From: OM182 bacterium MED-G24 | Lineage (GTDB): Bacteria > Pseudomonadota > Gammaproteobacteria > Pseudomonadales > Azotimanducaceae | Direction: 5' to 3' | Assembly: GCA_002457275.1 (NCBI GenBank) | Contig: NTKD01000014.1 | Coordinates: 1 to 32,723 of the forward strand | Length of the DNA stretch: 32,723 bases | Part shown: positions 18,154-32,723 of the stretch, one piece after another | Layout of the letters: every line of letters begins with the position of its first letter | How positions within the stretch are numbered: position 1 is the stretch's first letter | Program-made: the position numbers and the translations under genes | Notes under the pieces: model-generated | What the model saw: only the letters and a program-made list of their open reading frames with translations | Databases searched by the model: none | What the model was told of the DNA's origin: nothing

Positions 18154-19017
18154 ATGGAAAACCACGACCCTACCGACATCAGCGAGGCAGTAGAGACGTA
18201 TGGTCTCGCCCGGCACATCACCGAGCTTGATGAAATCGGTCTCACCGTTGTCCCTCAATCTACACTGGGACTCAACGACACCTGGTTCGAGCAACTTCGA
18301 GATGCAATCCTGAGAGTTGCGAAGGAGCGTAGCGGTGTCACATTTGACGTTGCCACCAATCCAACAGCAGCTTTTGAAGGACGCCCCGGTGTAATTGGCC
18401 ATCTCATCCTCTCGCACCTGATCCATGAAGATCAGGTGTTTGAAAAAGTACTGACGCATCCCGTCAAGAAAGCGCTGATGACACACATGCTCGGTGCGCG
18501 ACACCGGCTTTCCGTTAGTGATGGCTGGATCAAGTGGCAGACACCCGACACCTGGGAGGAAGAGTCCACAACCGGATTCCATACGGATCAGAGTGTCGTG
18601 CCTCCACCGTGGAACTGGCGGCTACCCCACATCGCCAACATGAACTGGACCCTGACGGACTATACCCGGGAAAATGGCGCACTGGCCTATGTGCCCGGCA
18701 GTCACCTGGAAGGGCGATTACCAGAGCCCGGTGAAGCGTTGCCGCTGGCGGTGCCTGTCGAGGCACCGATGGGTTCTCTAGTGATGTTCAATGGTTGCAC
18801 CTGGCATGGTGCTTATCGAAAAACCACACCCGGACTGCGCGTCGCGATGCTTGGGCAACACTCTCGACCCTACATGCTGCCCTTCCAGGACTTCAAAGGC
18901 CGCGTCGCCGATGAGACGTATGCTGCGAGCGAAGACCCGGATTATCTCAGGAGCCTGATGCGTGACGATGAGGATCAACTACGCGTTGATCCTTTTGCTG
19001 TGCCACGTGCCCAATGA
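18154..19017 (+). CDS. Phytanoyl-CoA dioxygenase (PhyH) family protein
   Basis: A 287-aa Fe(II)/2-oxoglutarate-dependent oxygenase of the PhyH family. The iron triad appears as H143-T-D145 in T-G-F-H-T-D-Q and His218 in T-W-H-G-A-Y; Arg229 in G-L-R-V-A-M is the likely 2-oxoglutarate anchor. Family members hydroxylate diverse small molecules; the substrate is unknown. The start is ATG 18154 with AGGAG 8-12 bases upstream. It is divergent from the blaI operon; the 179 bp between them hold the blaI promoter and probably its own. A short hairpin (CACCTGATC/GATCAGGTG) is present in the coding region near 18416-18439, probably by chance. Confidence 0.9.
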   Translation: MENHDPTDISEAVETYGLARHITELDEIGLTVVPQSTLGLNDTWFEQLRDAILRVAKERSGVTFDVATNPTAAFEGRPGVIGHLILSHLIHEDQVFEKVLTHPVKKALMTHMLGARHRLSVSDGWIKWQTPDTWEEESTTGFHTDQSVVPPPWNWRLPHIANMNWTLTDYTRENGALAYVPGSHLEGRLPEPGEALPLAVPVEAPMGSLVMFNGCTWHGAYRKTTPGLRVAMLGQHSRPYMLPFQDFKGRVADETYAASEDPDYLRSLMRDDEDQLRVDPFAVPRAQ

Positions 19018-25435: not shown

Positions 25436-26263
25436 CTATACAGGCTTGTCACCGCAGATCGTGATGCGTTCCACAGTTCTTTTCTGTGGATAGAAGTCCG
25501 CGAGCGCATAGTGCTGGGTACATCGATTGTCCCAGAACGCGACCGAGTTCTTTCGCCATCGGAACCGGCACTGGTACTCAGGAACGGTCGCCTGGATGTA
25601 GAGGAACGTCAGCAACTCATCACTTTCGCTCTTCTCCATACCGATGATCTGCCGGGTGAATGCCGCGTTCACAAACAGACTCCTGCGTCCCGTCTGCGGA
25701 TGAGTGCGAACCACCGGGTGTTCCGGGTTCGGGAAGCGGTGGTCGAACTCCTTACGATCCATGTTCTGCCATTTCATAACGATATCAACCCAGCCCGGGG
25801 GCCAGACATGTAACGCAGTGGCGTTGTCTATCTTCACTTTGATCTCATCATCAAGACCCTCATACGCCGCATACATGTCAGCGAACATCGTGTCTCCACC
25901 CACCGGGGGCATTTCCAGCGCACGCAGGATGGAACCCATCGGCGGGGATGCCTTGAACGTGACATCTGAATGCCAGATATCGTTGTGCGCCCGTAACTTC
26001 TCGTCTTCCGCGATACGGATCAGTTCAGCGTGCTCTGCACCCGGCGCGGACGTAGGATGAATATCAAGTTCGCCAAACCATCGGGCCACACGTTTCTGAT
26101 CTTCGACGTCGATCGTCTGATCCCGGAAAAACAGGACTTTCCAGTCGAGCAGTGCCTGCTCGAGTTCTTTCATCACGGAATCGGTCAACTGCTCCGAAAG
26201 GTCAAGATTCGGTATCTCGGCTCCGATGCCCGGTGTCAGTGGTTCAATAGTCAATGATGTCAA
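25436..26263 (-). CDS. TauD/TfdA-family Fe(II)/2-oxoglutarate dioxygenase
   Basis: A 275-aa dioxygenase of the TauD/TfdA family (taurine, 2,4-D and related substrates). Iron ligands are H98-x-D100 in I-W-H-S-D-V-T-F and His251 in C-T-Q-H-Y-A; Arg266 in V-E-R-I-T-I is the probable 2-oxoglutarate anchor. The middle has the family-typical G-G-D-T-M-F-A-D-M. The start is TTG 26263 with AGGAG about 10 bases upstream; the upstream codons in the same frame read through that ribosome binding site. The substrate cannot be assigned: no taurine transporter is nearby. A 23-bp sequence spanning its ribosome binding site and start recurs at 26500-26522. Confidence 0.9.
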   Translation of the reverse strand: MTSLTIEPLTPGIGAEIPNLDLSEQLTDSVMKELEQALLDWKVLFFRDQTIDVEDQKRVARWFGELDIHPTSAPGAEHAELIRIAEDEKLRAHNDIWHSDVTFKASPPMGSILRALEMPPVGGDTMFADMYAAYEGLDDEIKVKIDNATALHVWPPGWVDIVMKWQNMDRKEFDHRFPNPEHPVVRTHPQTGRRSLFVNAAFTRQIIGMEKSESDELLTFLYIQATVPEYQCRFRWRKNSVAFWDNRCTQHYALADFYPQKRTVERITICGDKPV

Positions 26264-26499
26264 CGTAATCGCTCCTGTGAGAACGCGCCTCGGCAATGAG
26301 ACCGGCTACAATTCCTGCCGTCGGCTCGCCTTAATTCATAGTGACAACTTCAGGGCGCTGATTCCAGAGAGAGAATAGACCAAGTCGTCAGCGGAATGTA
26401 CCGAACGTGGCCCCCGATCAGCCAAGGCGGCTCGCGGCCCGCGTTCGTCAAACAGGAGGACGACCAGAAGTGCAGTGGAGCGATACGTGTTCGATGACG

Positions 26500-30741: not shown

Positions 30742-31812
30742 ATGACATCCACCAGAACAATGATCATGCTGTTCGTCCTGGTGTCTGGTTGCAGCAACAA
30801 GGAGACTCCCTGAATGCCCGTCGGTGACGACCATGTATTTCCGCACGACGGTGTTGAGCGAACTTACAAGATGTATAAGCCGGACAACCTGGCACCTGGT
30901 GCGCCGATGGTCTTTGTCTTGCATGGCATGACCTCCAACAGCACTTGGTCCTACCTGGCAGGCTTTAACGATCTCGCTGAAGAACACGGTTTCCTTGCAG
31001 TGTATCCGCAGTCCCACCTCAAGTTGATCACGTTCGGTAAAGCGGGTGGCAAGCAAGGTGACTCTGGTAAGAAAGACAATTCAGGTAAGAAAGGCGACTC
31101 AGGCAAGGATGACTTTACCGACTTTCTGGGTGACAAGGCGAAAAACTGCAAGGAAGGCGAGACTTTCACCGCGATGGGGATGGAGATCCTCTGCCAGAAT
31201 GGACTCCTGACGACGCAACAGCTTCGCTGGAACAACGAAAACGCTGACGACCTGTTTGACGGCCAAAGCGATGTTTCATTTCTGACAGCGCTCGCCAAAT
31301 CGCTACAGGATGAGTTCGACCTGAGCCGAAAAAAAACCTTCGTGGCGGGATTCTCCAACGGCGGCTACATGAGCTATACGCTGATGTGTCAGGCGAGCGA
31401 TGTCTTCGCGGCCGCTGGTGTCGTGGCTGGATTGATCGATGTCGAGGTCCTGAAGAATTGTTCGTTCGACCAGCCCAAACCGATTATTCATATTCACGGC
31501 GCTGAAGACGGCATGGTCCCCATCTCGGGTGAGACCGACAAGTCCACGGGGATTGCCATGGTGAGTGCCCAGGACATCGTGCAGTACTTCGCGAACCTCA
31601 ATGAATCGGTAACCACAACTGAAACGCAGGTGACGGACAACACCACGTTGACGACCTATATTCCGGACGGTAACGGTGCCGAAGTGCATTACTACCGGAT
31701 CGAGAACCACGATCATTTCTGGCCCGGCAGTGACCCGAGCAAGAAAGGGTACAATGACGAATCAGGGATTAATGCCTCTGAACTGATCTGGTCGTTCTTC
31801 TCACGACTGTGA
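30742..31812 (+). pseudogene. PHB-depolymerase/LpqC-like lipoprotein interrupted after its signal peptide
   Basis: The hydrolase domain (30814-31812, 332 codons) belongs to the polyhydroxybutyrate-depolymerase/feruloyl-esterase-like family (LpqC): V-L-H-G-M-T at 35-40, nucleophile elbow A-G-F-S181-N-G-G, H-G-A-E-D-G-M-V-P with the probable Asp, and N-H-D-H-F-W-P-G with the probable His. In the same frame upstream, ATG 30742 opens M-T-S-T-R-T-M-I-M-L-F-V-L and the lipobox L-V-S-G-C, then S-N-K-E-T-P and a TGA at 30811-30813 directly before ATG 30814. The gene therefore encoded a lipoprotein, and one nonsense codon now separates signal from enzyme. Re-initiation at TGAATG could still yield a cytoplasmic form. 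Most of the enzyme domain is intact. Confidence 0.7.
31047..31110 (+). repeat. In-frame low-complexity Gly/Lys/Asp/Ser repeats
   Basis: Imperfect 15-18-bp units (GACTCTGGTAAGAAA, GACAATTCAGGTAAGAAA, GGCGACTCAGGCAAGGA) encode G-D-S-G-K-K-D-N-S-G-K-K-G-D-S-G-K-D-D in the hydrolase, residues about 80-100. The multiple of three keeps the frame. It looks like a flexible loop that grew by slippage. Confidence 0.6.
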
Positions 31813-31859
31813 AATGTGTTTCACGAACAACGTTACCCCTATCATCAGGAGTGAAATAG

Positions 31860-32723
31860 ATGGCTGTTTTCGGAAAAGACGAAGTCACACAAGCCAAGTT
31901 TGCGGCGAGTATGGCGCTACCTGAGTTTGAGTCGCCCAGCTTCACCCAGCCAAAATCTTTAGGCGATGCGAAGGTCGCGATCGTCACAACCGCTGCGCTG
32001 CATCGGGAAGGCGCAGATGGCTTTGAGCTCGGTGACGACGACTATCACTACGAGACCTTACCCAGAGACGCACGGGACCTGGCAATCGGACACCACAGCG
32101 TGAACTTTGACCGGGGTGGTTTTGCCGCTGATATCAACGTGGTGTATCCCATCGATCGTCTTGAAGAGATGGCAGCAAACGGCACCATCGGTGCTGTCGC
32201 AGAGAACCACTACACTTTCGCTGGCAACCAGTCCGATACAGTTTCAGAAATCCGTCTGGATTCCGGCCCGCTGTGTGCAAAAACGATGCTCGATGAAGGC
32301 GTTGACATTGTTTTACTCACCGGCACCTGACCGCTTTGTCCGCGTACCGTGTGTACGCTCGCTCATGTCTTCGAAGATGCCGGTCTGGCCACTGTTGTTC
32401 TGACCCCGATGTGGGAAGTGGCGGAACGTATGAACGTGCCAAGGGCGCTGCATACTCGTTTTCCCGTCGGTCTGTCGCTCGGTAAACCGAGAGACAAGGC
32501 GTTTCAGGATGAGGTCCTGCAAGCCGCGTTTGATCTATTGTCAGAACCCGAAGGTCCGGTGCTCAAAGAATTCCCTGTCAGTATCAGTTCGACGGGCGGA
32601 GAACCGCTGGCGTGCCCGCTCCCACCAAGAATGAACGCAGACCTGCATCCCGCTGTCGATGAAGCCCAGGCCCTCAAGGCTGCTTATGACCGTGCTTATG
32701 AAAAGAACAAGAGAACCTCAATC
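31860..32723 (+). CDS. Probable selenoprotein, glycine/betaine/D-proline reductase GrdB/PrdB family, 3' end outside window
   Basis: ATG 31860 follows AGGAGTGA. The first 156 residues have V-A-I-V-T-T-A-A-L-H, I-G-H-H-S-V-N-F-D-R-G-G-F, A-A-D-I-N-V-V-Y-P-I-D-R-L and G-A-V-A-E-N-H-Y-T-F, typical of the selenoprotein B family (glycine, sarcosine, betaine and D-proline reductases and their aerobic relatives). An in-frame TGA (32328-32330, residue 157) follows I-V-L-L-T-G-T and precedes P-L-C-P-R-T-V-C; the frame is then open for 131 codons to the edge (T-L-A-H-V-F-E-D-A-G-L-A-T-V-V-L). U157-x-x-C160 is the redox motif where other homologues have Cys. A SECIS-like hairpin follows. The role in an apparently aerobic genome is unknown; reductive cleavage of C-N or C-S bonds, or thiol redox work, is possible. 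A plain nonsense mutation is the alternative. Confidence 0.85.
32328..32358 (+). promoter_or_regulatory. Candidate bacterial SECIS element downstream of in-frame TGA
   Basis: After TGA (32328-32330) come 11 nt (32331-32341), then GCGTAC (32342-32347), loop CGTGT (32348-32352) and GTACGC (32353-32358): a perfect 6-bp stem, 17 nt in all, with GU in the loop. In E. coli fdhF the minimal element recognised by SelB is a 17-nt stem-loop placed 11 nt after the UGA with loop GU (recalled knowledge). Spacing, size and loop content fit. Confidence 0.75.

Follow-up and report, generated by a model that had tools for sequence, protein, structure and literature searches.

The last gene of contig NTKD01000014.1 (C6) of OM182 bacterium MED-G24, the entire 32,723 nucleotides of which were analysed and are here called the window, raises the question of whether a reading frame interrupted by TGA encodes a selenoprotein and, if so, what kind of enzyme such a protein would be. 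A preliminary description of the DNA had proposed a selenoprotein of the GrdB/PrdB family, made by local recoding of the TGA. The source assembly, a MAG of 2.09 Mb in 86 contigs, is 85% complete.

The frame was found as described: from its ATG it runs to an in-frame TGA and then stays open to the last base of the window (see table). The final 54 nt of the window match, on the minus strand, the start of contig C44. Joined across the two contigs, the frame encodes 390 residues, with the motif T-U-P-L-C-P-R-T around residue 157 and a terminal TGA stop; past the gene end on C44, a Rieske ring-hydroxylating oxygenase is encoded on the opposite strand. TGA is also used as an ordinary stop, ending both the upstream gene (30814-31812) and the selenoprotein gene itself. 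A changed genetic code, with TGA read as Trp, was ruled out on these grounds and by the Cys that relatives carry at the site, so that the recoding is local, as had been proposed. A separate ORF after the TGA, from GTG 32349, was also ruled out, since the sequence past the TGA can be aligned with 14 orthologues and shows similar constraint.

Features of the selenoprotein gene at the end of the window (positions are those of the window)
Feature	Position	Strand	Basis
Selenoprotein gene, 5' part, 288 codons	31860..32723	+	Frame reading and orthologues; the rest lies on contig C44
AGGAG, likely ribosome-binding site	31847..31851	+	8 nt before the ATG; sequence reading
In-frame TGA, selenocysteine codon, residue 157	32328..32330	+	TGA in 14/14 close orthologues; in relatives, 75 TGA and 5 TGT
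Cys160, second residue of the U-P-x-C motif	32337..32339	+	Invariant in the 22-row alignment, nearly so in the 64-row one
SECIS-like hairpin	Stem 32342-32347 with 32353-32358, loop 32348-32352 (CGTGT)	+	Segment comparison and covariation

When 200 genomes from the same family were searched, a relative was found in 174 genomes and in 34 of 37 genera; among the matches listed, each has at least one in-frame TGA, and three have one further stop. The codon aligned to residue 157 is TGA in all 14 close orthologues (67-80% identity to the 390-residue query), all of which have the full C-terminal part past it and end in TAA or TAG. Wider relatives, 80 of 239 loci kept from a scan of named genomes and in part on the same contigs as the 14, belong to marine Gammaproteobacteria (Pseudomonadales, K189A, SAR92, Porticoccaceae and others) at 69-81% identity and mostly to Acidimicrobiia at 51-57%. 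In 75 of them the aligned codon is TGA and in five it is TGT (Cys), these five being few and related to one another; plasmid homologues also have Cys at the TGA position. When the comparison was extended to a 70-row alignment with PrdB and GrdF included, the column of residue 157 held Sec or Cys in 70 of 70 rows, and on the corresponding tree two changes are needed to account for the Sec and Cys states. The annotated PrdB of Terrisporobacter, an unannotated PrdB of Acetoanaerobium and the annotated GrdF of Peptoclostridium each have a TGA of their own in that column, within LLTAGUGTC, LLTAGUGTC and LTSTUGTC, respectively, as compared with LLTGTUPLC in the window.

Substitution rates tell the same on the two sides of the TGA. 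Between the window gene and its same-genus orthologue, pS is.776 and pN.133 over the 156 codons before it, and.668 and.104 over the 131 codons after it; in three other orthologues pN is.097-.139 before and.094-.125 after. With constraint so similar before and after the TGA, the part after it is translated in these lineages. The selenoprotein proposed in the preliminary description is thus borne out by the close and wider relatives and by the constraint after the TGA, and the expected alignment of residue 157 with Sec or Cys in homologues was observed in every row.

The nucleotides that follow the TGA carry a second signal. A six-pair hairpin, GCGUAC-CGUGU-GUACGC, lies 11 nt after it, and its stem is perfect in the window. 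In 131 genes, which give 105 different segments (100 TGA, 5 TGT), 97.0% of the stem cells are paired in the 100 TGA segments versus 85.7% in 1000 shuffles (sd 0.7, maximum 89.0), and sliding the 3' side of the stem by 1-3 nt leaves 6-74% pairing. The fourth stem pair, in which base 3 of the Arg162 codon pairs with base 1 of codon 166, is U-A in 56 of the TGA segments, C-G in 33, G-C in three, A-U in one, G-U or U-G in six and unpaired in one; it is therefore formed in 99 of 100 TGA segments, as against none of the five Cys segments, where the stem has partly decayed (4.0 of 6 pairs formed on average versus 5.8 in the TGA segments). When mapped on the tree with its 60 Sec rows, both sides of this pair have changed 8 times each, and among six independent pairs five go in the same direction and none in the opposite one (p about 0.06, too few for 0.05); three other stem pairs gave two to four independent pairs each, none opposing. 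Across nine orthologues the amino acid is unchanged at 160 codons, and 14 codons do not vary at any base; R162, T163, C165 and T166 belong to these 14. The distant paralogue on contig C27 (L002) has a hairpin with a different stem at the same spacing from its TGA. Bacterial SECIS loops carry a conserved G-U. Rfam at its gathering score returned no match in the window. As read from the sequences, a hairpin just 3' of the UGA, of the kind expected of a SECIS in bacterial selenoproteins, is in place, and insertion of Sec at residue 157 can be taken as nearly certain.

The machinery for such an insertion was only partly recovered when it was looked for in the genome, a check that had been suggested for the Sec reading. 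selD is present in the MAG (286.8 bits, cut-off 125). No match to selA was obtained in the 85%-complete MAG; eight selB-like matches were all below cut-off, the best being IF-2; and tRNA-Sec was not found, since 150 of the 268 first-look candidates were scored and the best eight of 12 tRNA-Sec candidates proved to be other tRNAs. In a genome of the same genus (G028), selA (601 bits) lies directly before selB (454 bits), both over cut-off, and of the 11.3 kb in which the two genes lie one 57-bp stretch alone matches the MAG, which means that the genes neighbouring selA-selB are also missing from it. Across the family, 158 of 200 genomes have a selB match that passes the cut-off, and tRNA-Sec was detected in 138 of 200 (20 candidates per genome scored under strict filters). 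All 14 genomes that carry a close orthologue have selB and ten of them tRNA-Sec, the same-genus genome being among the four without a tRNA-Sec match. The absence of selA, selB and tRNA-Sec from the MAG is read as probable assembly incompleteness, for which more than one gap may be needed because in several relatives tRNA-Sec is on another contig than selB. Among genomes compared by the residue they encode, selB is over cut-off in one of five Cys-bearing versus five of seven Sec-bearing ones; the expectation that Cys genomes are without selB is only partly borne out. The MAG selD (L021:313-2505) encodes 730 residues, with a pyridine nucleotide-disulphide oxidoreductase domain fused at the N-terminus. 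In another genome of the family (G149, L099:7800-14140), a relative with TGA and 61% identity is separated by about 5 kb from a tRNA-Sec, which there adjoins selB.

With respect to the protein, the assignment to the GrdB/PrdB family made in the preliminary description holds at the superfamily level only. The Pfam GRDB profile (PF07355) gives 34 bits against a cut-off of 22 (36.7 for the same-genus orthologue), with a match that starts at about profile position 200, the N-terminal half of GrdB being missing, and ends at residue 156. The best NCBIfam match is PrdB (TIGR04483), at 127.6 bits for the window part and 123.8 for the full-length orthologue versus a cut-off of 300, followed by TIGR01918 (45.1 and 50.1 versus 65.45) and TIGR01917 (38.8 and 41.8 versus 602.2), whereas annotated PrdB and GrdF pass their own cut-offs in the same scan (424.7 bits for Terrisporobacter PrdB). 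GrdB/PrdB is thus a statement of ancestry and not of function. Pfam gave no match over cut-off in the C-terminal 134 residues of the orthologue and no thioredoxin or peroxiredoxin family for either the window protein or its same-genus orthologue; a weak match to Thioredoxin_3, below cut-off, was seen in the C27 paralogue only. Since the Pfam match stops at the residue before Sec, the gene is easy to lose in annotation. The profile itself (347 positions; window 31884-32327) stops there in both the window protein and its orthologue, as would a model derived from TGA-truncated proteins.

In a tree of 70 rows, the window type U-P-[LM]-C-P-R, its Cys members included, forms one branch (SH-aLRT 100), which is joined (98) with the U-P-x-C-[TS]-R types of Gammaproteobacteria and Acidimicrobiia; this joint group lies apart from PrdB, GrdB and a short U-P-V-C-H-Q type, in a tree with long branches and a support of 66 for the PrdB/GrdB group. 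An AlphaFold2 model of the same-genus orthologue, built from 64 aligned sequences with Sec as Cys (pLDDT 93.6, pTM 0.91), predicts an alpha/beta core, with strand 150-154 before and helix 160-174 after residue 157, followed by a C-terminal region that is helical. Foldseek returned no match at E <= 0.001, and the best VIA-align Z of 7.8 (LacI-type and other Rossmann-like folds) is below the informative level, absence from either list excluding no family; a PDB sequence search with the family profile gave no match at E <= 1.

The Stickland reductases act with a pyruvoyl partner, and the profile PF09338, which matches both PrdA (80 bits) and GrdG, the GrdE-type subunit (676 bits), was used to look for it. 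It has no match in 199 of the 200 family genomes, the 85%-complete MAG among them. In the sole case (G015, L222:6794-9111) the PF09338 protein is immediately followed by a GrdB-type ORF that contains a TGA in frame (FTSTUGTCTRCG). With no partner subunit in 199 of 200 family genomes, the PrdB label is probably wrong for the window lineage, and it is on this point, together with the curated cut-offs, that the family assignment of the preliminary description is limited to the superfamily.

In a comparison of gene neighbourhoods over 18 stretches (the window, C44, C27, a relative with 61% identity and the 14 orthologue loci), no recurrent operon partner was found, no neighbour family occurring in more than six of them. 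The commonest neighbour clusters across the 80 loci, named from one representative scanned per cluster, are AMP-binding (acyl-CoA synthetase-like, 13), metallo-beta-lactamase fold (10) and a cluster with no Pfam match (8); a sulfatase-type cluster is found downstream on the same strand in six of 80, and there are other clusters of 5-6 loci. A gene whose scanned representative is a PhyH-type dioxygenase follows on the same strand 48-57 nt downstream in five Porticoccaceae/SAR92-type loci (L137:7230-8156, L139, L141, L142 and L144). Naming the substrate by operon logic was attempted and gave no answer. The preliminary description had also counted several 2-oxoglutarate dioxygenases near the gene; by Pfam there are two among the 17 window proteins scanned, TauD (25436-26296) and PhyH (18154-19017), to which the Rieske oxygenase on C44 may be added, and an aerobic life of the organism is inferred from these oxygenase genes.

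Among the known systems, PrdB of Terrisporobacter and Acetoanaerobium is homologous over residues 31-228 and has Sec in the same column, but has 241 rather than 390 residues, U-G-T-C in place of U-P-x-C and a separate branch; prdA lies two genes upstream of the Terrisporobacter PrdB, whereas the window genome has no PF09338 protein. GrdB, GrdF and GrdH (PF07355, TIGR01917/01918), the protein B of glycine, sarcosine and betaine reductases, share a homologous C-terminal half and the Sec column, but the window protein is without the N-terminal half and the GrdE-type partner and has a C-terminal extension. The short Cys homologues encoded on Roseomonas and Haematobacter plasmids, annotated as 'glycine/sarcosine/betaine reductase selenoprotein B family protein', have CP[VI]C for UPxC and no prdA or grdE in the stretch shown, and fall near the C27 TGA gene in the tree; they differ from the window protein in length (about 305 residues), in having no C-terminal helical region and in their branch. 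Fluoroacetate reductase FarB/FarE of Synergistota, as described in PMC10838667, is GrdB-like, with Sec proposed to attack the C-F bond; it comes from an anaerobe and keeps a GrdE-like partner and, likened by description, serves as a model for the chemistry only.

Four other explanations of the locus have to be weighed. That the TGA is a sequencing or assembly error, as a single MAG might suggest, can be practically dismissed, since 14 of 14 orthologues, all in other assemblies, share the TGA at this codon and the hairpin covaries. It is very improbable, too, that the gene is a relic in a lineage that has lost selA, selB and tRNA-Sec, the TGA now ending a useless 156-residue product. The failure to find these three genes and the 57-bp match that alone represents the same-genus selA-selB region would be in keeping with such a loss, but the MAG is 85% complete, the missing stretch includes neighbouring genes, selD is kept, the genes of both the window and C27 are kept open past their TGA, the window hairpin has a perfect stem, and the tRNA candidates were partly scored.

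The other two explanations accept the selenoprotein and concern its function. The protein could be a true subunit of D-proline or of glycine/sarcosine/betaine reductase, with the pyruvoyl partner encoded elsewhere, as would be suggested by the shared superfamily and Sec column, by PrdB as best NCBIfam match and by the name PrdB that tables of published surveys give to marine relatives. This is unlikely by taking into account the PrdB, TIGR01918 and TIGR01917 cut-offs, which the window protein does not reach and annotated PrdB and GrdF do, the motif U-P-x-C versus U-G-T-C, and the absence of PF09338 from all but one family genome in a search that does detect the single positive one. A Sec-dependent antioxidant or thiol-disulfide oxidoreductase, acting on peroxides or disulfides, is somewhat unlikely: UxxC is a usual thiol redox motif in the tables of the GOS (PMC2398784) and Sargasso (PMC1088965) surveys, and the neighbourhood is rich in oxygenases, but neither the window nor the same-genus protein has a thioredoxin or peroxiredoxin Pfam match, the protein is long with many conserved polar residues, and its relatives act on amino acids.

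The reading favoured here, with moderate confidence, is that the gene encodes a 390-residue selenoprotein with Sec at residue 157 that would act as a stand-alone reductase, without a pyruvoyl partner. SelB carrying Sec-tRNA would bind the hairpin just past the UGA and insert Sec at residue 157 of a protein with an alpha/beta core akin to PrdB and to the C-terminal half of GrdB, followed by a C-terminal helical region, the selenol being placed at a helix start within the U-P-x-C motif. By analogy with the glycine and D-proline reductases, which, as presented in PMC13188914, are the nearest chemistry together with the C-F attack proposed for fluoroacetate reductase (PMC10838667), the Sec selenolate may attack a C-N, C-S or C-halogen bond of a small organic substrate, Cys160 would then form an Se-S bond and free the product, and a thioredoxin-like protein or a small thiol would re-reduce the Se-S bond; the pyruvoyl partner of the Stickland reductases would not be used. 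Cys160 need not be the resolving residue, because Cys252 is also nearly invariant (64-row alignment). The chances that stand-alone UxxC chemistry of this kind takes place appear even.

A marine Sec protein of the GrdB/PrdB superfamily is not new, since selenoproteins named PrdB were already counted in tables of the Sargasso Sea survey (42 genes, one Cys homologue, UXXC; PMC1088965) and of the GOS survey (235 Sec and 110 Cys, seventh by number, under pfam07355; PMC2398784). As tabulated there, they resemble the window lineage in being marine and in having UxxC and Sec with some Cys homologues, and the window lineage is very likely the one counted. The function of these PrdB-labelled ocean selenoproteins was read off from clostridia, whereas the window lineage fails both the curated PrdB score and the partner test. 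The lists of the 2022 and 2026 reviews that include D-proline reductase mention no partnerless form (PMC9312934, PMC13188914), and a literature search run mostly outside subscription papers found no paper on a partnerless GrdB/PrdB-like selenoprotein. The new point here is that the window lineage lacks the partner, has an extension and probably does not consist of proline reductases.

If the partner is indeed missing, a common marine use of selenium lacks an explanation. It may be, as is suggested here tentatively, that the widespread ocean 'PrdB' selenoproteins, rather than being proline reductases, form a class of their own, stand-alone selenoenzymes found in marine Gammaproteobacteria and in Acidimicrobiia, partnerless, often in several copies per genome and with an extra helical region, in which Sec carries out reductive cleavage in oxygen-living cells; among the commonest marine uses of selenium would then be a reaction that nobody has described. 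The orthologue set, the hairpin and the availability of both Sec and Cys relatives make the question of function directly testable.

Some observations on other members of the superfamily may be added. The MAG has a second GrdB/PrdB-like gene, that on contig C27 (L002:1357-2253), which encodes 298 residues with an in-frame TGA (VPIUPVCHQ). Of the Alphaproteobacterial plasmid Cys homologues, one (L225:4890-5798) adjoins selO and another (L226:4854-5780) a cob gene cluster. An Acidimicrobiia-like copy of the gene (L168:5971-7143) is found in a record titled Bifidobacterium breve, which is probably a misnamed MAG.
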